Shown here in pieces: positions 28,620 through 51,000 of a stretch of DNA of 64,000 bases; position 1 is the stretch's first letter; each line of letters begins with the position of its first letter. Made by a program: the position numbers and the translations under genes. The stretch is taken from NCBI RefSeq assembly GCF_964340395.1, contig NC_135557.1, positions 10,314,460-10,378,459 on the forward strand, written 5' to 3'. The stretch comes from Glandiceps talaboti (lineage: Eukaryota > Hemichordata > Enteropneusta > Spengelidae). The notes beneath the pieces were generated by a model. That model did no database searches, was not told the origin of the DNA, and saw nothing but the letters and a program-made list of their open reading frames with translations.

Positions 28620-31600
28620 ATGTATGTATGTATGTATGTATGTATCATGTATGCATCTATGTATGTATGTATGTATGTATGTATGTATGTATGTATGTAT
28701 GTATTTATGTGTAATTACGGTATATACAAGAATATTATATCTAGACCATGAAAACATAATAATATCCATGATACCAGTCATTAACACATCCTAACATTCC
28801 TTGAGCAACTGACATCGTACTTCAACATAGAACTTGAACTTAAACACTACAGACAATAGATAATTAGACAAATTATCAATTGTCTGTAATACTAGTATTT
28901 GAAAAGTTTATTGTGAAAGCTACACTGAAGATTTTGTCCACTATCATATATCATAATTATATATACATGTATGTTTATACTGATATTAAGATAAGATAAT
29001 ACTTTGAGTCTGAAATTTAAATGCCTGCTACACATGTACAAACAGATATATACAAACAAACTGCCTCAAGAAATAATAAACCCAAAACAAACACAATAAC
29101 ATCCATGATAAAATATGCAGTGAAATACACAAAAACAATACATACATGTACATAATACATAAAAATCATCAAAGGTAAAACAAACACAATGACTTCAAAT
29201 AATGACTTCCATTTGAAGTTAAAATAGAATGTACGGTTTCAATTAAATGTGTCTATTAAAAAGAAAAAAGCAATGTTAAATGACTTGTTTTGTTCGATTA
29301 AAATTTCTGTTAAAAAGCTTGGGAAATAAATGAGTTGATATAAGGGTTAGTGCAAGAAGCTGGCAACCTCAGCCAACCACTTCTGTCAATTCGTCTATTA
29401 TCTATTTCCTGTCTAACAATAGACTACATGTACACTGTTTATGGTCTAAGTGGGTATGTCTCGTCTGTCACTATGCACATAAGTTTGTCTTCAAGTCGCT
29501 CCTGGTAGACTGAGTCCATCGACTGCTGATTTCTATTGATAACCACCCCTGCCTTTCTATTCTCACAACAATGTTTACCACGGCTCAATAAATAATGACA
29601 AAATATCTGGTTGTACATTAAAAGATCGTAACTTTCATAAAAATAAAATCAATGTGGTGTTGGAACAGTGCAAGACTTCTTCTAAAACACAGGGACAGCT
29701 CAACTTTTAACAATTACAATTCAAGGAAATAATATTGGCTAACTGATAAGCATACATGTACATGTACATGTAGTTTGAAGATACAGGGTGAAATAAGGTC
29801 TGGACAATCGGATTGATTTTGATAATGTAATACCTGATTGTGTGTGTATACATGTAATCCATAGAAAGGAGCTAACATGCTGTTGTCTGCTTGCACGCTA
29901 AATTTATTTTACTAGAATACAAGTCTAAAGGATGCAAGTAACAGTGAGTTGAAAGAGATGAATCAATATTTATGACTACTTAGGCTAGTTATAATCGGTG
30001 AAAAGGTGAAATAAAAAAATAAGAGACTGAGAAATGAAGAAAACTATGAAAACCAATATATGACAAATGCATTGACACCTATCAATCATCAATCATCGAA
30101 GTTGATCTCAATACTTTGCCTCTCCTGCAAGATTGGTTAGTTGGTTCTCTTATCATCAAACTCATCACACTGAGTTCTCTTATCATCAAACTCATCACAC
30201 AGAGTTCTCTTATCATCAAACTCATCACACTGAGTTCTCTTATCATCAAACTCATCACACAGTTCTCTTATCATCAAACTCATCACACAGAGTTCTCTTA
30301 TCATCAAACTCATCACACAGTTCTCTTATCATCAAACTCATCACACACAGTTCTCTTATCATCAAACCCATCACACACAGTTCTCTTATCATCAAACTCA
30401 TCACACTGAGTTCTCTTATCATCAAACTCATCACACAGAGTTCTCTTATCATCAAACTCATCACACAGTTCTCTTATCATCAAACTCGTCACACACAGTT
30501 CTCTTATCATCAAACTCATCACACTGAGTTCTCTTATCATCAAACTCATCACACCAAGTTCTCTTATCATCAAACTCATCACACAGTTCTCTTATCATCA
30601 AACTCGTCACACACAGTTCTCTTATCATCAAACTCATCACACCGAGTTCTCTTATCATCAAACTCATCACACTGAGTTCTCTTATCATCAAACTCATCAC
30701 ACACAGTTCTCATATCATCAAACTCATCACACTGAGTTCTCTTACCATCAAACTCATCACAGAGTTCTCTTATCATCAAACTCATCACACTGAGTTCTCT
30801 TATCATCAAACTCATCACACTGAGTTCTCTTATCATCAAACTCATCACACTGAGTTCTCTTATCATCAAACTCATCACACCGAGTTCTCTTATCATCAAA
30901 CTCATCACACACAGTTCTCTTATCATCAAACTCATCACACACAGTTCTCTTATCATCAAACTCATCACACACAGTTCTCTTATCATCAAACTCATCACAC
31001 TGAGTTCTCTTATCATCAAACTCATCACACCGAGTTCTCTTATCATCAAACTCATCACACACAGTTCTCTTATCATCAAACTCATCACACAGTTCTCTTA
31101 TCATCAAACTCATCACACTGAGTTCTCTTATCATCAAACTCATCACACCGAGTTCTCTTATCAAACTCATCACACTGAGTTCTCTTATCATCAAACTCAT
31201 CACACCGAGTTCTCTTATCAAACTCATCACACTGAGTTCTCTTATCATCAAACTCATCACACAGAGTTCTCTTATCATCAAACTCATCACACTGAGTTCT
31301 CTTATCATCAAACTCATCACACCGAGTTCTCTTATCATCAAACTCATCACACACAGTTCTCTTATCATCAAACTCATCACACCGAGTTCTCTTATCAAAC
31401 TCATCACACCAAGTTCTCTTATCATCAAACTCATCACACTGAGTTCTCTTATCATCAAACTCATCACACTGAGTTCTCTTATCATCAAACTCATCACATT
31501 GAGTTCTCTTATCATCAAACTCATCACACAGAGTTCTCTTATCATCAAACTCATCACACTGAGTTCTCTTATCATCAAACTCATCACACTGAGTTCTCTT

Positions 31601-34600
31601 ATCATCAAACTCATCACATTGAGTTCTCTTATCATCAAACTCATCACACAGAGTTCTCTTATCATCAAACTCATCACACTGAGTTCTCTTATTATTAAAC
31701 TCATCACACAGAGTTCTCTTATCATCAAACTCATCACACTGAGTTCTCTTATCATCAAACTCATCACACTGAGTTCTCTTATCATCAAACCCATCACACA
31801 CAGTTCTCTTATCATCAAACTCATCACACTGAGTTCTCTTACCATCAAACTCATCACATTGAGTTCTCTTATCATCAAACTCATCACACACAGTTCTCTT
31901 ATCATCAAACTCATCACACTGAGTTCTCTTATCATCAAACTCATCACACTGAGTTCTCTTATCATCAAACTCATCACACTGAGTTCTCTTTTCATCAAAC
32001 TCATCACACACAGTTCTCTTATCATCAAACTCATCACACTGAGTTCTCTTATCATCAAACTCATCACACTGAGTTCTCTTATCATCAAACTCATCACACT
32101 GAGTTCTCTTATCATCAAACTCATCACACTGAGTTCTCTTATCATCAAACTCGTCACACACAGTTCTCTTATCATCAAACTCATCACACTGAGTTCTCTT
32201 ATCATCAAACTCATCACACCAAGTTCTCTTATCATCAAACTCATCACACAGTTCTCTTATCATCAAACTCGTCACACACAGTTCTCTTATCATCAAACTC
32301 ATCACACCGAGTTCTCTTATCATCAAACTCATCACACTGAGTTCTCTTATCATCAAACTCATCACACACAGTTCTCATATCATCAAACTCATCACACTGA
32401 GTTCTCTTACCATCAAACTCATCACAGAGTTCTCTTATCATCAAACTCATCACACTGAGTTCTCTTATCATCAAACTCATCACACTGAGTTCTCTTATCA
32501 TCAAACTCATCACACTGAGTTCTCTTATCATCAAACTCATCACACCGAGTTCTCTTATCATCAAACTCATCACACACAGTTCTCTTATCATCAAACTCAT
32601 CACACACAGTTCTCTTATCATCAAACTCATCACACACAGTTCTCTTATCATCAAACTCATCACACTGAGTTCTCTTATCATCAAACTCATCACACCGAGT
32701 TCTCTTATCATCAAACTCATCACACACAGTTCTCTTATCATCAAACTCATCACACAGTTCTCTTATCATCAAACTCATCACACTGAGTTCTCTTATCATC
32801 AAACTCATCACACCGAGTTCTCTTATCAAACTCATCACACTGAGTTCTCTTATCATCAAACTCATCACACCGAGTTCTCTTATCAAACTCATCACACTGA
32901 GTTCTCTTATCATCAAACTCATCACACAGAGTTCTCTTATCATCAAACTCATCACACTGAGTTCTCTTATCATCAAACTCATCACACCGAGTTCTCTTAT
33001 CATCAAACTCATCACACACAGTTCTCTTATCATCAAACTCATCACACCGAGTTCTCTTATCAAACTCATCACACCAAGTTCTCTTATCATCAAACTCATC
33101 ACACTGAGTTCTCTTATCATCAAACTCATCACACTGAGTTCTCTTATCATCAAACTCATCACATTGAGTTCTCTTATCATCAAACTCATCACACAGAGTT
33201 CTCTTATCATCAAACTCATCACACTGAGTTCTCTTATCATCAAACTCATCACACTGAGTTCTCTTATCATCAAACTCATCACATTGAGTTCTCTTATCAT
33301 CAAACTCATCACACAGAGTTCTCTTATCATCAAACTCATCACACTGAGTTCTCTTATTATTAAACTCATCACACAGAGTTCTCTTATCATCAAACTCATC
33401 ACACTGAGTTCTCTTATCATCAAACTCATCACACTGAGTTCTCTTATCATCAAACCCATCACACACAGTTCTCTTATCATCAAACTCATCACACTGAGTT
33501 CTCTTACCATCAAACTCATCACATTGAGTTCTCTTATCATCAAACTCATCACACACAGTTCTCTTATCATCAAACTCATCACACTGAGTTCTCTTATCAT
33601 CAAACTCATCACACTGAGTTCTCTTATCATCAAACTCATCACACTGAGTTCTCTTTTCATCAAACTCATCACACACAGTTCTCTTATCATCAAACTCATC
33701 ACACTGAGTTCTCTTATCATCAAACTCATCACACTGAGTTCTCTTATCATCAAACTCATCACACTGAGTTCTCTTATCATCAAACTCATCACACTGAGTT
33801 CTCTTATCATCAAACTCATCACACTGAGTTCTCTTATCATCAAACTCATCACACTGAGTTCTCTTATCATCAAACTCATCACACTGAGTTCTCTTATCAT
33901 CAAACTCATCACACTGAGTTCTCTTATCATCAAACTCATCACACTGAGTTCCCTTATCATCAAACTCATCACACTGAGTTCTCTTATCATCAAACTCGTC
34001 ACACAGAGTTCTCTTATAATCAAACTCATCACACTGAGTTCTCTTATCATCAAACCCATCACACTGAGTTCTCTTATCATCAAACTCATCACACAGAGTT
34101 CTTTTATCATCAAACTCATCACACTGAGTTCCCTTATCATCAAACTCATCACACTGAGTTCTCTTATCATCAAACTCGTCACACAGAGTTCTCTTATAAT
34201 CAAACTCATCACACTGAGTTCTCTTATCATCAAACCCATCACACTGAGTTCTCTTATCATCAAACTCATCACACAGAGTTCTTTTATCATCAAACTCATC
34301 ACACTGAGTTCTCTTATAATCAAACTCGTCACACAGAGTTCTCTTATAATCAAACTCATCACACACAGTTCTCTTATCATCAAACTCATCACACACAGTT
34401 CTATTATCATCAAACTCATCACACTGAGTTCTCTTATCATCAAACTCATCACACACAGTTCTCTTATCATTAAACTCATCACACTGAGTTCTCTTATCAT
34501 CAAACTCATCACACAGAGTTCTCTTATCATCAAACTCATCACACTGAGTTCTCTTATCAAACCCATCACACTGAGTTCTCTTATCATCAAACTCATCACA

Positions 34601-36291
34601 CAGAGTTCTCATATCATCAAACTCATCACACTGAGTTCTCATATCATCAAACTCATCACACACAGTTCTCATATCATCAAACTCATCACACACAGTTCTC
34701 TTATCATCAAACTCATCACACAGAGTTCTTTTATCATTAAACTCATCACAGAGTTCTCTTATCATCAAACTCATCACACAGGGAGTTCTCATATCATCAA
34801 ACTCATCACACAGCGTTCTCTTATCATCAAACTCATCAAACACAGTTCTCTTATCATCAAACTCATCACAGTGAGTTCTCTTATCATCAAACTCATCACA
34901 CAGAGAGTTCTCATATTATCAAACTCATCACAAGAGTTCTCTTATCATCAAACTCATCACACACAGTTCTCTTATCATCAAACTCATCAGAGTTCTCATA
35001 TCATCAAACTCATCACACACAGTTCTCATGTCATCAAACTCATCACACACAGTTCTCTTATCATCAAACTCATCACACAGAGTTCTCATGTCATCAAACC
35101 CATCACACTGAGTTCTCTTATCATCAAACTCATCAGACAGAGTTCTCTGATCATCAAACTCATCACACTGAGTTCTCTTATCATCAAACTTATCACAGAG
35201 TTCTCTTATCATCAAACTCATCACACACAGTTCTCTTATCATCAAACTCATCACACACAGTTCTCATGTCATCAAACCCATCACACTGAGTTCTCTTATC
35301 ATCAAACTCATCACACAGAGTTCTCTTATCATCAAACTCATCACACTGAGTTCTCGTACCATCAAACTCATCACAAAGAGTTCCCTTATTATTAAACTCA
35401 AGAAACACAGAATTCTCTTACCAGTCCTTGAAAGACTGCTTGACGTCAGCTGATTGCAAGATGGCGACCAACTAACCTACATGTATCTTACACGAGAGGC
35501 AAAGTATTGAGATCAACTTCGATGATATGCTAGCTGTCATTGCATTTGTCATATATATTGGATATTTTTTTTCATTTCTCAGTGTCTTCTTCTTTACTTT
35601 GCCATTTTACTGATTATTGACTACATACTTATAACTAGCCTCAGTAGTCATAAATATTGAGTCATCCCTTTCCAAGTCTCTGTTACCTGCATTCTTTAGA
35701 CTATTTATGAATAAAATAAACTTAGCATGCAAAACAGACAACAGTGCGCTATTAGCTCCTCTCTACACACACTATCTATCAGATATCACATTATCAAAAT
35801 CATTTTACAACACCAAGTATCAAAGTTTTTAAATTCCATAATCTCCCTTAAAAAATACATCTAAAATAGACAATTGTTTAGTTTTCTTCTTACAATATTT
35901 GGCTCAGAGCTTAGACTCTTAGAGACCATGGAAGTATAACGTGGGTTATACTTCCATGTCGAGACTAATAGCACCTGTACTTCACATCTTGACTACATAC
36001 TTAGAAGTAGTATAATAGAGATATAGAAAGCGGTCCCACAGAAAGGGTGGGGTTTTTGACAAGTCCATTTCTCCATTATCTCTATTAACACTGACCATAC
36101 CTGTTGAATAAATCATCCTGTTCTTCGAAATCAAGAGAAATTTGTTTGATGAGCAAACAACACGCCAGATTGCCGTCCTCAAAGAAGGGGTCCTCGGGTT
36201 CCAACCTCCGTTTGGCATGTTTATAACTCCAGGACAGCACCCGTCTTTTATGAGACTGCATCTGTTCTTCTTTGCCGTCTTGGAAATCCAT
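26668..36291 (-). CDS. ZNF511: Zinc finger protein 511 orthologue
   Basis: Four exons on the minus strand: 36291-36101, 28396-28195, 27670-27543, 26809-26668, giving 220 residues. All junctions are GT-AG with matching phases. The N-terminal part has the family motif PEDPFFEDGNLACCL (about residue 35-50). Three C2H2 fingers follow, each with ligand spacing Cys-x(2 or 4)-Cys-x12-His-x4-His: residues 70-93, 97-118 and 134-157. The segment HVLEWHDALFQILAEKQNM after finger 2 and YPLNFRFDKP after finger 3 are characteristic of ZNF511. The acidic C-terminal tail has no recognised domain. Human ZNF511 is of similar size (about 250 residues). Its molecular role is poorly known; nuclear location is inferred from the fingers. 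The ATG at 36291 is the first in frame after the 5' stop-rich region, but a more upstream start cannot be excluded. Intron 1 is 7.7 kb and holds the giant minisatellite. Confidence 0.92.
27543..27670 (-). CDS. ZNF511: ZNF511 exon 3, third C2H2 finger
   Basis: Acceptor TTGTTTCAG, donor AAAAG|GTAAGT. Encodes YRCLIQSCIERFKTAKQRKN then HLVKSH and the FRFDKP motif. Confidence 0.92.
28195..28396 (-). CDS. ZNF511: ZNF511 exon 2, first and second C2H2 fingers
   Basis: Acceptor TTCCAATCAG, donor CATG|GTGAGA. Encodes FKCHEPGCHQFF (finger 1) and HVCMHCKRFF (finger 2) with the LEWHDALFQIL helix. Confidence 0.93.
28472..28705. repeat. (GTAT)n microsatellite
   Basis: Tetranucleotide array with TG-rich interruptions, 75 bp upstream of ZNF511 exon 2 in its first intron. 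Open frames in all six frames are repeat artefacts. Confidence 0.95.
28710..29770. other. ZNF511 intron 1 sequence, no gene
   Basis: AT-rich with repeated CATGTA-type motifs. No exon or complete mobile element recognised. Confidence 0.5.
29772..30146. mobile_element. Left inverted arm of a large foldback structure
   Basis: Reverse-complement match to 35448-35830. Diagnostic shared segments, in order: ATTTTGATAATGT, GCTAA-TTTATTTTA, TCAATATTTATGACTACT, GGCTAGTTATAA, ATATGACAAATGCA, ATCGAAGTTGATCTCAATAC, TTTGCCTCTC. Arms are diverged by small indels. Confidence 0.85.
30147..35420. repeat. 30-bp minisatellite, ~175 copies, 5.3 kb
   Basis: Unit GAGTTCTCTTATCATCAAAC plus TCATCACACT, with shorter 24-28 bp variants. 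Because 30 is a multiple of 3, several frames on both strands remain open for hundreds of codons (SLIIKLIT, CDEFDDKRTQ, MSLMIRELSV repeats). No start context, splice support or non-repeat extension supports a protein. It lies in ZNF511 intron 1. Confidence 0.97.
35448..35830. mobile_element. Right inverted arm of the large foldback structure
   Basis: Mirror of 29772-30146. The arm sequence adjacent to the array holds extra bases (35405-35447) not present in the left arm, so the array and the left arm may have undergone a deletion at their junction. Confidence 0.85.
35927..35958. repeat. Short perfect palindrome, 14-bp arms
   Basis: CATGGAAGTATAAC, four spacer bases, then GTTATACTTCCATG. The 3' half with its spacer (GTGGGTTATACTTCCATG) recurs in reverse complement inside the MITE at 39092-39110. 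Confidence 0.85.
36101..36291 (-). CDS. ZNF511: ZNF511 exon 1, N-terminus
   Basis: ATG at 36291; donor AACAG|GTATGG. Encodes MDFQDGKEEQMQSHKRRVLS, then RRLEPEDPFFEDGNLACCLL. Ends with two bases of a Ser codon completed in exon 2. Confidence 0.85.
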
Positions 36292-43100: not shown

Positions 43101-44968
43101 GTTAAGTTTGTAGAATTTCATCTGAAAATAAAGTGTTAAGTTTGTAGAATTTCACATTGAAAATAAAGTGTTAATTTTGTAGAATTTCAGATTGAAAATA
43201 ACATGTTAATTTGATAGAATTTCACATTGAAAATAAAGTATTATTTTTGTAGAATTTCACACTGAAAATAAAGTGTTGTTTATTTTACAGAAAGAATGTA
43301 TAGAGAAAGGGAAGACACTTATGGACTCAGAATCGTGGGAAGCAGTAATTAATTATGTCCTATTAGCATGGAAGTTTGTGGACAAAATGCCAAAGTAAGT
43401 CTGATGTTCTTTGATTTACACTATAGTATTACAAAGTATTCTGTTCTTTATAGAAAGGGTAACATATGCCAGTCCGTCATGTCATTCCTAAGCACCCACT
43501 AGAAGTAATGAAAATCATATTCTGAGCACCTTCACATTCATTGGCAGTGTGCCCTCTATTGATACCCAAGTTTTGTTGTTGTGAGCCAAAATGATAAAAA
43601 CTGAGATTTTTTGTGAGTCACCGCATAGTAAAGAGATAGGGGAACACCAAATTTTGGTGTGTCACTAGAAATTGTGTGCGTCAGTGGTGCATTCAATTGG
43701 AATGGCTTAGAGGGCAGACTGTTCATTGGCATTCCAGAGACTTTATTTGTGAAAGAAATGATTGAAATGCAAGGATTTGAAAGTTTGGTTTCTGGATTCT
43801 CGTGACAGAGAATCTCATGTGAAGCTTGAATTCAAGTGATACAAAATATTGAAGTCATGTGTTACTTCATTTTGTGCATTCGAACCACAATACTTCGAGT
43901 TGAATTATTTTACCTTTTTAAAAGTTTATTGTTAAGCTGAATCCCCAATACTGTGATAACAGGATTTTGACATCAGTTTTCACATATTAATTTTCATATA
44001 TGTTTCTTTTCCTTCTACAGTTGGGATAACCCAGCACACAATGCACAAAAGAATCAATGCTTCAAGACACTAGCCACACAATGTAAGAAAGCTCTCAAGA
44101 AAAGTTGTTTAGAGAAAGAATTGTACCATGACATCAAATCAAGGTAAATCACACACTATAGTGTAACTGATAAGTTTTATTAATAGTGTACTTGAAAGAA
44201 ATTACTATTTTATTTATGATTCATTGTAACATTTCAATGTCATTATTAATCAAAGATGAAGGGTATTGTAAAACATTTGCATAAAAATTGATATTACCAT
44301 ACCTTTGTGCGATAATTTTCTTTTGAACCCTGGTAATGGTGGGGGGGGGGGGGGGGGGGATTCCTACTCGTAAAAGTTGTTCAGTCTTTCATACTGTCAT
44401 ACTCTGATTGTGAACTGGAACCGGGTATTATGATGGGGAGGGGTGTCTTGCAAAACTTGTTTAAACATTCATATACTTGTATCAAAGTTTTGATAGGTAA
44501 CCGTGGTAACAGGGAGGTGGGGTTATTTGTAAAAGTTGGATAGATTTCCATAGTCTTGTTACCATCATTCATTTTGAAACCCAGGTTGAATCTGTACCAT
44601 ACCAACTTTTTTGTCCCTGACATTTATAACACAGCATTCAATATTTATATAATTTAGAGAAGAATGAATCAAGAATTTGACATTTTATTGAATTTACAGA
44701 CTAGAAAATGAGTATAGATCATATGATTATGAATTAAATAAATCATAGAATGATTTTAAAAATTTACAAGTTAACATGTAGAAATATCGTACAATTAAAT
44801 ATTAAAACACTTCTTTGACTGCAATAAAAACAACTTCAGTGTAAGCAGTTTCCTGATCTTATTTTTCTCTTTGTTTTATCTTCCAGACTTGAAGTCGCTG
44901 AAGAAGCAGACAGTGTCATGCAATCCTGTGTTGAAGAAGTTAATACAATTCTCAAAAAACTATCGTGA
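37073..44968 (+). CDS. Cut8/STS1-like protein, candidate nuclear proteasome tether
   Basis: Seven exons join in frame: 37073-37145, 38249-38431, 41237-41496, 42505-42666, 43291-43394, 44021-44143, 44887-44968, total 328 residues. Residues 1-150 are low-complexity and Pro/Lys-rich (PPPVDLYNPPV, PKTPKQ, PKAPPKPKKQRVQRKPK, the last a probable nuclear localisation signal). From about 150 to 300 the predicted helical domain reads LTTKQLIDMVTQFVDKYPEQ, IPTPDLTAMEQRLDYL, SFPYTRWGSSRDSFCYKRV and AWKFVDKMPNWDNP. The order 'PE.E / PTPDL / FPY...Y.RV' matches the Cut8/STS1 family as I remember it; that family holds the proteasome at the nuclear envelope and promotes mitotic protein turnover in yeasts. 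The assignment is from motif memory and not from alignment. The gene is divergent from ZNF511. Confidence 0.68.
37501..37809 (+). CDS. Open frame in Cut8-like intron 1, doubtful
   Basis: 102 codons, MARHIGLTSILGQSS at the start, Arg/Ser-rich stretch RRHHSGIRGGFQSFPRKLSS that would suit a mitochondrial presequence. It sits 355 bp downstream of exon 1, in sequence less AT-rich than its surroundings. No family recognised. It could be an alternative first exon, a small nested gene or chance. Confidence 0.25.
   Translation: MARHIGLTSILGQSSSTTPCYDRKLCYSLLIDNFSRRHHSGIRGGFQSFPRKLSSQNMNAPKNAIETPWSIQYCYAKPTLTHCIVWREILPAVNHTCGWYTN
37955..37967. repeat. Poly(C) tract
   Basis: Run of 13 C inside Cut8-like intron 1. 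Confidence 0.8.
38249..38431 (+). CDS. Cut8-like exon 2
   Basis: Acceptor CCGTACAG, donor G|GTAGCT (weak). Phase 1 in and out. Encodes IDIPDSFLSPPPVDLYNPPV and a short helical segment LQEYGNLKRKLNLAEAQFQL. Confidence 0.82.
38466..38828 (-). mobile_element. tRNA-derived SINE family 2, minus orientation
   Basis: On the minus strand the head near 38825 reads GATGGGTGAATGGTTAGAG (A-box like), then CAGTTTCAAGCC (B-box like); the body includes AGGGTAGGATAGAGGTTGC; the 3' end is AAAGCGGTATATAAAAACC followed by an (ATT)n tail at 38468-38477. A second copy lies at 42150-42415. Confidence 0.75.
39035..39202 (-). mobile_element. hAT-like MITE copy with an internal insertion
   Basis: Minus-strand relative of the 43545 element, starting at CAGTGTGCCCTCT (39202). 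Between the ACCACA-AGTA and AGAGATA segments it carries extra sequence including the 19-mer seen at 35943. Its other end is degraded. Confidence 0.75.
39795..40814. mobile_element. 1,020-bp foldback transposon with ~200-bp inverted ends
   Basis: Left arm 39795-39995 and right arm 40612-40814 are inverted copies with roughly nine of ten bases matching by eye. Both begin TAGGCAACATTTGTGTTTCG outward and are flanked by TA on each side (39793-39794, 40815-40816), which fits a TA target duplication. The central 610 bp encode nothing recognisable. Confidence 0.9.
40820..41230. other. Cut8-like intron 2, right part
   Basis: No exon. Contains GGGCTCGAAATTAACAGTAG and TGGGACTAC-type sequence similar, in part inverted, to 26300-26530, so an old repeat is present in both places. 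Confidence 0.45.
41237..41496 (+). CDS. Cut8-like exon 3
   Basis: Acceptor TTTCGTAG, donor CAG|GTATGT. Phase 1 in, phase 0 out. Encodes the basic PPKPKKQRVQRKPK stretch and the first domain helix TTKQLIDMVTQFVDKYPE. Confidence 0.88.
41510..41905. repeat. ~100-bp tandem repeat, 4 copies
   Basis: Each copy carries GAGTTACAGGGGTACA, TTTCAAACTCTTGAA, ATCAATTCTGA and TTTGGAAAAGATGGTATTCC. Located just after the donor of exon 3. Confidence 0.85.
42150..42415 (-). mobile_element. tRNA-derived SINE family 2, second copy
   Basis: Shares with 38466-38828 the segments CCATTACAACCTTT/GTAAG, CTCTATCCTACC, AATCTTGCCCA and ACAACCTGCAGATTC. Interrupted by a 22-base G tract at 42278-42299. Confidence 0.7.
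42505..42666 (+). CDS. Cut8-like exon 4
   Basis: Acceptor TGTTTCTAG, donor AAG|GTAAGA, phase 0 both sides. Encodes KICELIPTPDLTAMEQRLDY and the FPYTRWGSSRDSFCYKRV motif, the most family-specific part. Confidence 0.9.
43050..43285. repeat. ~36-bp minisatellite abutting exon 5 acceptor, ~7 copies
   Basis: Units of TTTGTAGAATTTCACATTGA plus AAATAAAGTGTTAA. The last unit runs into the polypyrimidine tract of exon 5. Confidence 0.9.
43291..43394 (+). CDS. Cut8-like exon 5
   Basis: Acceptor TATTTTACAG, donor AA|GTAAGT, phase 0 in, phase 2 out. Encodes KGKTLMDSESWEAVINYVLL and AWKFVDKMP. Confidence 0.88.
43537..43729 (+). mobile_element. hAT-like MITE, intact, 8-bp target duplication
   Basis: Element 43545-43721 (177 bp) starts CAGTGTGCCCTCT and ends AGAGGGCAGACTG, flanked by the perfect 8-bp repeat TTCATTGG (43537-43544, 43722-43729). 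CAGTG ends and 8-bp duplications are typical of hAT elements. No coding capacity. Confidence 0.9.
44021..44143 (+). CDS. Cut8-like exon 6
   Basis: Acceptor TTCTACAG, donor AAG|GTAAAT read as AG|GTAAAT, phase 2 both sides. Encodes WDNPAHNAQKNQCFKTLATQ then CKKALKKS. Confidence 0.88.
44319..44600. repeat. ~110-bp imperfect tandem repeat with poly(G) tracts
   Basis: Two to three related segments with GGTAAYSGTGGTAAYRGGG, GTAAAAGTTGNWTAGNNTT and CATACTTGTNNCATCATT; a 19-base G run at 44341-44359. Confidence 0.6.
44887..44968 (+). CDS. Cut8-like exon 7, C-terminus
   Basis: Acceptor TATCTTCCAG; encodes LEVAEEADSVMQSCVEEVNT, then ILKKLS and TGA. Confidence 0.85.
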
Positions 44969-45447: not shown

Positions 45448-45754
45448 CAAATCATAAGATTATATGATTTATACCACAGATTTGGACTCTCTGCTTGAAG
45501 AATAAAAACATTAAGAATAAGGAGAAATTGTAGAAAAACCTTGAGATAAAAAATCCAGTCCTGAATCAGAATCGAGTATGATTTCACACCAGTTACATTT
45601 TTTTCTATTTCTTGGACAAATTTACATAAAGAAACATCATTTTTAAAGGCCCAGAATTCAGTCCTGGGTTCCCCCAAGTTCTTATCAGTGGATTTAGTCA
45701 TTACATATATATATATATATATGTTGAGGGTAGAAGAAAATCAAGTTGGGTTTT

Positions 45755-45801
45755 TCGTCTCTACAAGCCTGTTTCGTGAGTAAATCACTCGTTAGGAGAT
45801 G
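45755..45801 (-). ncRNA. Hammerhead ribozyme, copy 1, core mutated
   Basis: Same fold as the copy at 45909-45864, but the catalytic CUGANGA reads CTAACGA: the G5 position is A. That position is essential in hammerheads, so this copy should be inactive. Stems are otherwise kept. Confidence 0.72.
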
Positions 45802-45863
45802 TTGATGTACATATATATATATATATATATGTTGAGGGTAGAAGAAAATCAAGTCGGGTTTTT

Positions 45864-45909
45864 CGTCTCTACAAGCCTGTTTCGTGAGTAAATCACTCGT
45901 CAGGAGATG
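45864..45909 (-). ncRNA. Type I hammerhead self-cleaving ribozyme, copy 2
   Basis: Minus strand, 5' to 3': stem I strand CATCTC (45909-45904), core CTGACGA (45903-45897), stem II GTGA/TCAC with TTTAC loop (45896-45884), GAA plus A15.1 (45883-45880), stem III ACA/TGT closed by GGCT (45880-45871), unpaired A17 (45870), stem I strand GAGACG (45869-45864). All invariant core bases match CUGANGA...GAAA...UH. Stem I continues past an asymmetric internal loop with AAATCAA pairing to TTGATTT (about 45849-45855). Predicted cut lies between 45870 and 45869. Stem III of only three pairs is typical of retrozyme-type hammerheads, which often need dimers to act. Confidence 0.82.
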
Positions 45910-46040
45910 TTGATTTACTCACGAAACAGGCTTGTAGAGACGAAAAACCCGACTTGATTTTCTTCTACCCTCAACATATACTCCGCTCTGCGTGCAGACG
46001 TATCGAGCACTGTACTACGGACAAATCTTACCACTGACTT

Positions 46041-46189
<149 letters not shown>

Positions 46190-47883: not shown

Positions 47884-48090
47884 TCAGTACACAGCTTTCT
47901 CACAGATAAAGGTTGCTTTCCACTGTGATGTCATCGGACTGTCATTCCATTTCAGAGATGGTTTATTCAATGTTCTGATCGCCAATTCGACAGACGTATA
48001 GACATCACCATTGTTTGGCTCCCCTTCATCCCATTGAGCAAATTCTTGTGTTAGTTCTGTTCCATCAACCCAAGTGTAACCTTCCCAAAC
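47884..48090 (-). CDS. Lectin exon 4, second half of the C-type lectin domain
   Basis: Acceptor TCTTAAG preceded by a (CTTGT)n pyrimidine tract; phase 0. 68 codons: [43 protein letters not shown]. Confidence 0.92.
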   Translation of the reverse strand, partial: VWEGYTWVDGTELTQEFAQWDEGEPNNGDVYTSVELAIRTLNKPSLKWNDSPMTSQWKATFICEKAVY

Positions 48091-51000
48091 CTTAAGACAA
48101 GATAAGACAAGACAAAGCAAGACAACACAAGAAAATAATGTTAAGTATCTAAGAGTGTCTTCAGTAATTAGAAGAGTGGGGCTTTGGGAAACCAAGCATA
48201 GTCTTTTGCAAAAAAATGTAACCGTCCCCTCATTACATTTTTTAAGTGACCTTACTTTCCTCTCTCTAAAATATGATAACCCCCACCACCACCACCACAC
48301 CCAACTCCATTGAAATCTCTCAAAACAATTTGGTTATCATGAATTTTAAGGCCTTTGTTCTTTTCCACTATTACCACCACCGCAGTGAATTTGTATGACG
48401 GCACTGCTTTAATTCAATCCAATGTTTGGACCTTATTGGCACAGCAGAAGGTCATCACTCCCAAAGACTAAATTAAATAGATGCATTACTGACATCCTTT
48501 CCCCACTTAGTGAAGATGACTTAGATGTGTTGTAGCTAAATTCACCACTAGAGGGCGACCCTAAGAGAAAGCTTTCTTTCGTGCTTCCTACTCGCTAGAC
48601 AACACTTCGGCTTGCCTTCTAGTTGTGAACTTAGCAACAGTGCCAACTCCCGTGACTTGCCCTGTGCAGACTTTTATCGGCTCCGTGTTTTCCTTCCAGG
48701 AAATAGACATTTTCATAAAATGTGGGTTCTGTAAAGTCATTTTATGATTTTACATCACCAGCAATTATTTGCGACTTCAAAGAAACACCAATTTGATTTT
48801 GTGCTATTGTAGGGTATCTTTGATATGGGTACATAATGGAAGTGGGTAGAAATTATAAACTCCTGTTGCACAACGAATATTCATGGTTCTTGCATGTTTA
48901 TTCCCTCTTTTGTGAATATTCATGACTACTGCGTGCTTACACATTCTCTTATGAATATTCATGACTCCTGAGCGTTTATTCCCTCTCTTATGAATATCCA
49001 TGACTCCCCTCATGCTTATTGCATCAATTATGAATATTCATGACTCCTGCATACTTACTCCCTCATCATGCCATGAATATTCATCTCTCGAAATCCATAG
49101 TTATGTAAATGCCTTCATTTTCAGGAGTAGCCATATTAGTTGAGGAGTGAGCATTTATTTTGGATTTACAAAACAATTTCCATCATCGCTTCCTACTTGA
49201 AAAAAATCACTTATAAAAAAATACACGATGCCATTGTTTGTAACTCAATGCATTGCAAAAGCATAATAAATGTGTAAAAACAGTTTTTATTGTACATGCA
49301 ATAACAAAACTTTTTACACATGTTTTAGATTTTTGCAATGCATTGAGTTACAAATACAGACTTAGTTAATGTTGTTTCACATCGATTTTTTTTCAGGTAG
49401 GAAGCCATGATGAGGCCTAAAAAATAATTGTTTAGCTTCGGTTACCCGACACCACCTAGTTTTTCATTGCCAACCCTATACCTTTTTTGCGTGTTCGATA
49501 AAAAAAATAATAAAATCGCAACAATTGTGAAGTTTCACGAGAAATAGAAGATGCGGAAACTGACGTCAACTTAAAAAAAAACAATAATACATCTGATACG
49601 AAGAAATATATAACACAAGACCACGTGGAATATAATAAAAACATGAACCATACATTAATAAATATATATTAAAATAAATTAAACATTCTACCTATCTATT
49701 CTAAAATTGAGCGTAAAAAAATACATACATACATACATACATACATACATACATACATACATACATACATACATACATACTTACATACATACATGCATAC
49801 ATGCATACATGCATACATACATACATACATACATACATACATACATACATACATACATACACACCTGGTGAGTAAGACCAATGTGAAAATTACATTGCCA
49901 AAGTGGATCACATCGGCTTAGATCAAGTGTCTGCCTTATATGACGAGTCAGAAAGTCGTTCAGTTCGTGATTGTCATCCTTGACAAGGTCACTATCCATA
50001 CTTTGACAGTAACTACGTGCAGTATGCCAAGTCATCAGAGTTTCCATTTCAAAATAGTAGCAGAATGATTTAAATCCAATCCACCCAGCTTCACACTCTT
50101 CCTCTGGTGATAAAAAAAAAACATTTAAAAAAAAAACATTTACGTACATCGTTCTCTAGATAAATATGTTTAAATGTTATAATGAATTGCTCTACAGTGC
50201 CCCATCATTTGCCACTACCACACAGAAGTTTCTATTGTCAAACTCACCGACATCATCATCAGTAAAATAGCAGTAATTGCGGCACAGGACATCAAAACCT
50301 TAACTTGCACCGAAAATGAAGATATTCATATGCAAGTGAAATAATCGCCACCAGTGTCTGATATTGTTGACAAGACCACATGCGATTTCATACTATATTT
50401 TATTGGGATCGCCTGGCGATAATATCACTTTAAATGTTTTAATTCTAAGTTCTTTAAAATAACTACATACATACATACATACATACATACATACATACAT
50501 ACATACGTACATGCGTACATGCGTACATGCGTGCATGCGTGCATACATACATACATACATACATACATACATACATACATACATACATACATACATACAT
50601 GCATACATGCATACATACATACATACATGCATACATGCATACATACATACATACATACATACATACATACATACATACATACATAGACTGTCAACAGTCG
50701 TAGATGAAGTCAAGTCGACGACGCGTCGGATTATATTTGTGTTGGAATCCTCAGTGGTAGCGCGCGCGTTTTGTGTGTATATCACAGAGAATGTGTATTG
50801 TACATGATGATTATTTATCGCATGTCATATGTTATATGCATGCACACAATTAGCATTTAAATAAAAAAATATTTCAGAAGGTTTTATTTAGGAGTGCATA
50901 ATCCGCGTCTAAGGCAAAAAAAATATTTTCTGGTCAGCACGCTCATCACTTAAATACCCCCCCCCCCCCCCCCCGCCTCGGTCTCTTTTTTTCGTGTTTG

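Follow-up and report, generated by a model that had tools for sequence, protein, structure and literature searches.

Across the window, the whole 64-kb stretch of DNA that was analysed, immunoglobulin exons and a fibronectin III exon lie on the plus strand between 7521 and 15720, with minisatellites between them. These exons are perhaps from a DSCAM-like or related cell-adhesion gene, the match to the DSCAM FN3 model falling below its cut-off. A C-type lectin occupies 47884-50155 on the minus strand, with a match to Pfam Lectin_C in 49781-50155; the frame at 47884-48333 looks by eye like the end of the lectin and yielded no Pfam match. The presence of Ig/FN3 and C-type lectin exons points to animal DNA. 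The window is rich in minisatellites and tetranucleotide arrays (51 entries, some of them overlapping), among which a 5.3-kb array of a 30-bp tandem repeat at 30144-35400 (176.7 copies, 92% matches) is open in several frames. The locus described here is situated approximately 900 bp past a plus-strand frame that stops at 44968 and ahead of the minus-strand lectin exon. The frame stopping at 44968 may be the terminal exon of a gene in which an upstream ORF weakly matches Cut8, below the cut-off.

The locus comprises two direct repeat units, an inverted and shortened copy and tracts of (AT)n (Table 1). Unit A is the first on the minus strand and unit B the second, with (AT)n between them. Alignment of 45705-45810 with 45813-45918 gave identity in 103 of 106 columns. 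One of the three differences, 45793 versus 45901, changes G5 of the copy B core to A (CTAACGA) and breaks the consensus; another, 45807 versus 45915, already lies past the snap-back junction considered below. The unique part of unit A has a G+C content of 42.2%, below 50%. An open frame runs through both units because 108 is a multiple of 3, and a coding role for it was rejected: no Pfam family was matched above cut-off and the frame is probably not a gene. A protein search with the frame at 45918-46043 on the minus strand returned no candidate from collections containing little animal DNA.

Table 1. Features of the repeat locus, with positions numbered from the first base of the window.
Feature	Position	Strand	Basis
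Hammerhead ribozyme type I, copy A, full consensus core	45864..45909	-	Direct reading, structural descriptor, RF00163 alignment
Predicted self-cleavage site, after A17 at 45870	45869..45870	-	Inferred from core position
Copy B of the hammerhead, G5 to A	45756..45801	-	Sequence comparison with copy A
Two direct units, period 108 bp	45705..45914	-	Tandem-repeat and alignment analysis
74-codon open frame through both units	45694..45918	-	ORF listing; no Pfam family above cut-off
Inverted, shortened copy	45911..45980	+	70/70 complementary to 45826-45895, 69/70 to 45718-45787
Spacer between inverted arms, 15 nt, loop of the proposed snap-back	45896..45910		Sequence
(AT)n tract after unit B	45705..45722		Sequence
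(AT)n tract between units A and B	45811..45830		Sequence
Unique 62-bp segment from the inverted copy to (TA)72; pseudo-LTR tail or host/target sequence	45981..46042	+	Sequence
(TA)72 tract, 62 bp past the inverted copy	46043..46187		Sequence

Copy A on the minus strand has three helices of 4, 4 and 3 bp and is open at stem I, the arrangement of a type I hammerhead. Stem I is formed by TCTC (45907-45904) and GAGA (45869-45866), stem II by GTGA (45896-45893) and TCAC (45887-45884) with the loop TTTAC, and stem III by ACA (45880-45878) and TGT (45873-45871) with the loop GGCT. Between the helices, CTGACGA occupies 45903-45897 and GAA 45883-45881. The hammerhead consensus core consists of C3 U4 G5 A6 N7 G8 A9, G12 A13 A14, A15-U16 and H17 (Perreault et al., PMC3088659), and all of these positions were matched in copy A, as CUGACGA, GAA, A15-U16 and an A at H17 (45870). 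A preliminary description had claimed that every core base was present in order, that the three stems paired as given above and that the cut would fall between 45870 and 45869; the first two points were confirmed by this reading and the third agrees with the core position. It had also extended stem I with AAATCAA and TTGATTT. This pairing exists (45916-45910 with 45852-45846), but it falls outside 45864-45909, and its first two A's belong to the inverted arm and not to the unit, the sister unit permitting 5 bp. The outer helix adds little, since the computed energies were -3.8 for the core alone, -2.5 with the 5-bp outer helix and -4.7 with all 7 bp.

A strict descriptor (stem I of 4 bp, stem II of at least 4 bp and stem III of at least 3 bp including A15.1-U16.1) located a single place in the 64-kb window, whereas at least one place was found in only 1 of 1000 dinucleotide shuffles. 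With a looser descriptor (3, 3 and 2 bp) the same single place was returned, and 5 of 1000 dinucleotide shuffles contained at least one. Besides copy A, the descriptors detected no second hammerhead in the window, nor a minimal form without helix III. The core pattern stripped of its stems was not significant, giving 25 partly overlapping matches against a shuffle mean of 15.55, with 16 of 100 shuffles reaching 25.

The Rfam model RF00163 (Hammerhead_1) aligned end to end with copy A at 12.7 bits, below its gathering score of 34, with an E-value of 1.4 over all families. No family attained its gathering score in an Rfam scan of the 64-kb window. A search restricted to 451 bases around copy A listed 17 matches up to an E-value of 10 with no hammerhead among them, and none was listed up to the same E-value at copy B. 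A covariance-model score under the threshold had been set beforehand as refuting the motif. It was not taken to do so here, given the full core and the rarity of the structured motif in shuffles; the low score nonetheless counts against the motif, and we infer that the short stems are its likely cause. Judged from the sequence, the copy A motif is real by its anatomy and weak by the curated model. A chance look-alike arising within an inverted repeat would account for the Rfam score below gathering and for the frequency of the bare core pattern; such an origin is nevertheless highly improbable given the occurrence of the structured motif in 1 of 1000 shuffles and its position in a retroelement-like tandem unit, a place where a hammerhead would be expected.

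The inverted copy lies head-to-head with unit A and starts 2 bases past the copy A interval. As its start falls inside stem II, the inverted copy is without the CUGANGA half, and a plus-strand hammerhead formed from this arm was ruled out on these grounds. When read on the plus strand, unit A continues as ...GATGTTGAT|TTACTCACGA and unit B as ...GATGTTGAT|GTACATATAT, the two diverging right after TGAT. Immediately before ATCA (45892-45895) on the same strand lies the stretch of which TTACTCACGA is the reverse complement, and TGAT (45911-45914) pairs with this ATCA. The junction fits exactly with what would be produced by a cDNA 3' end, TGAT, folding onto ATCA 15 nt away on the same strand and being extended, namely a head-to-head palindrome of 70 bp with a 15-nt loop; the maker of the junction was presumably a retroelement enzyme. 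If this reading is right, an event of reverse transcription is preserved here to the nucleotide: the cDNA would have passed without a break through the cleavage site of copy A and folded back over 4 nt immediately upstream of stem I. The same cDNA end would also result if the enzyme had stopped prematurely, and little can be proved from one locus.

The array ends within or close to (AT)n on its outer sides. The window has five tracts of (AT)8 or longer, and three of them are found at the locus, where two border the units directly and the third is that past the inverted copy; the (AT)n may belong to the unit and not to the target. A tail shared between the sequence after unit B and that after the inverted copy was considered and rejected, since its score of 9.5 was equalled or exceeded in 268 of 2000 shuffles and in 289 of 2000 pieces of the window. 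The contact of the units with (AT)n, the low Rfam score and the mutation of one of the two cores would be compatible with some other AT-targeting mobile element, or with a microsatellite-linked repeat, carrying an inherited hammerhead-like motif that had lost its role. This explanation is improbable, as chance would seldom produce a full core together with three stems and a simple microsatellite would not show direct and inverted copies.

The Penelope layout includes pLTR-like repeats in both direct and inverted orientation and a palindrome where the inverted repeat joins, and all of these features are present here. On balance, the locus is probably the relic of an insertion by a Penelope-like or Penelope-mobilised retroelement, made up of short hammerhead-bearing, pseudo-LTR-like units, two direct and one inverted, among (AT)n. 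RNA containing the units would have been reverse-transcribed at an AT-rich target, and the snap-back of the cDNA end would then have primed the second copy. In an intact element the tandem units would constitute a double hammerhead, stem III of one (ACAGGCUUGU) pairing over 10 bp with that of the next, and by the example of known dimeric hammerheads each core would cut the site of the other unit and the RNA would be trimmed. Of the 36 ORFs listed around the locus 10 were scanned, and none of these had a reverse transcriptase or GIY-YIG endonuclease domain; a solo repeat would lack both. Exact pieces of the motif gave no matches in viral contigs or in prokaryote genome contigs, both of which hold little animal DNA. 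By analogy with known elements, two characters would count against a Penelope origin: the 108-bp unit is shorter than the 181-218 bp pLTRs of Adineta vaga (PMC3846280), and helix III, here of 3 bp, is usually absent from Penelope hammerheads (PMC6155905, PMC7761336).

The preliminary description had placed the motif among hammerheads carried by animal retroelements. The complete type I core and a short stem III of that sort uphold this attribution in general, whereas the small metazoan retrozyme, to which it had been likened, fits poorly. Non-LTR retrozymes are non-coding hammerhead repeats arranged in tandem, from whose RNA monomers are cut and made circular, and the locus would be a degraded dimer of one. 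The tandem units, the G+C content of the unique part of unit A and the lack of a coding domain in the ORFs scanned are all in keeping with such an element. However, the lengths given for animal type I hammerhead repeats are approximately 150-450 bp and those for retrozyme RNAs approximately 170-400 nt (PMC7229834). With a period of 108 bp the locus is therefore not a well-formed metazoan retrozyme, and a circle of 108 nt would be smaller than the RNAs reported. Moreover, the unit B core is without G5, and it is in Penelope elements that inverted copies with palindromic junctions have been described. A retrozyme origin is thus considered doubtful. A circular RNA had also been envisaged. A unit-length circle would need two working cuts, and since the B core is mutated no unit-length RNA would be expected to be cut out at this locus.

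The stem III loop of copy A (GGCU) can pair with itself through two G-U and two G-C pairs, a property that a 4-nt loop has by itself with a chance of about 14% by arithmetic. Because stem III is of 3 bp and its loop is self-pairing, tandem copies can share a continuous stem III of 10 bp. This helix was computed at -12.3 kcal/mol as a duplex and at 0.0 for the lone strand, which has no fold. For an RNA of A and B without the inverted arm, the dimer fold lacking outer helices was computed at -32.7 against -28.7 for two monomers, an advantage of 4 kcal/mol; the dimer with outer helices (-28.6) was no better than two monomers without them. With an ensemble value of -44.7, this RNA is predicted to have neither hammerhead fold as its ground state, and the monomer core of copy A alone has a computed probability of 1.8e-4, figures from an energy model that ignores tertiary contacts and ranks folds only roughly. 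In the dimer, to judge by the two cores, that of A would cut the site of B, and that of B, being broken, could not cut the site of A.

RNA read from the inverted arm onward was computed to form the 70-bp hairpin at -126.6 kcal/mol, compared with -30.5 for shuffles (z -27). The computed probability of the hammerhead was 6e-60 in an RNA of the arm and A, and 1e-19 with B included, since B can compete for the arm. Pairing with the inverted arm is thus predicted to bury the copy A ribozyme in read-through RNA. The locus is probably catalytically silent, and copy A outside this context could be active. Sub-threshold Rfam matches to microRNA families were recorded at 45842-45964, including MIR8007 at 53.1 bits (gathering 195) and MIR1223 at 41 bits (gathering 77). 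The assignments to MIR8007, MIR1223 and MIR4208 (39.3-53.1 bits, others lower) were rejected, all being below gathering and attributable to the array's long hairpins. The 70-bp arms could give small RNAs if transcribed.

A further and quite unlikely reading is a family of hairpin-locked hammerheads, in which self-primed inversion would furnish each insertion with an antisense arm that silences the read-through ribozyme, and RNAs starting inside the units would be active double hammerheads of approximately 108 nt. If true, this length would be below that of the animal hammerhead circles reported in those parts of the literature that were consulted.

Dimeric small hammerhead variants have reportedly been characterised by Lunse et al. 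Together with the hammerheads of Poseidon from Anolis carolinensis, these Penelope-like hammerheads share with the locus, as far as descriptions allow them to be likened, the type I form, a short stem III, tandem copies, AT-rich surroundings and the placement of the hammerhead in a terminal repeat; the locus differs in its 3-bp stem III with a tetraloop, in being ORF-less and in its unit of only 108 bp. The double hammerheads of viroid-like RNAs and Penelope elements are described as tandem motifs with a palindromic loop and 1-3 bp in stem III (PMC6466107), and a dimeric mechanism is described for newt hammerheads (PMC6155905). In the Aedes aegypti repeat hammerhead, likened to the locus from the legend of Figure S8 of Perreault et al. 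2011 (PMC3088659), loop III likewise pairs fully in the dimer to give a stem III of 10 bp. The Anolis Penelope element cleaves an AT-rich DNA target and has its hammerhead at the border of pLTR and ORF, and this hammerhead needed the addition of its protein to cut (PMC11167929).

Metazoan non-LTR retrozymes from coral, mussel and axolotl resemble the locus in their tandem type I hammerheads, low G+C content and, in some, a weak helix III; they differ in the longer units noted above, and inverted copies are not described for them in the parts of PMC7229834 that were consulted. The same source describes a two-pair helix III with a tetraloop in invertebrate retrozymes, and by this analogy the helix III of the locus, with 3 bp and a tetraloop, is closer to the invertebrate retrozyme helix than to Penelope hammerheads that have none.

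The layout resembles that of the Penelope elements of Adineta vaga, in which direct pLTRs are accompanied by an adjacent, shortened inverted pLTR in head-to-head orientation, palindromes at the inverted junction have been read as self-priming, and TATATATA occurs in a pLTR (PMC3846280). These elements differ in pLTR length and in possessing an ORF, and the words 'hammerhead' and 'ribozyme' have no occurrences in PMC3846280. In the giant squid genome 235 'hammerhead 1' loci have been annotated (PMC6962438), and the present locus would otherwise simply add to an abundant kind. What the hammerhead does in Penelope-like elements has been called a mystery (PMC7761336), and the point of wider use in this locus would be a readable self-priming junction beside a ribozyme.
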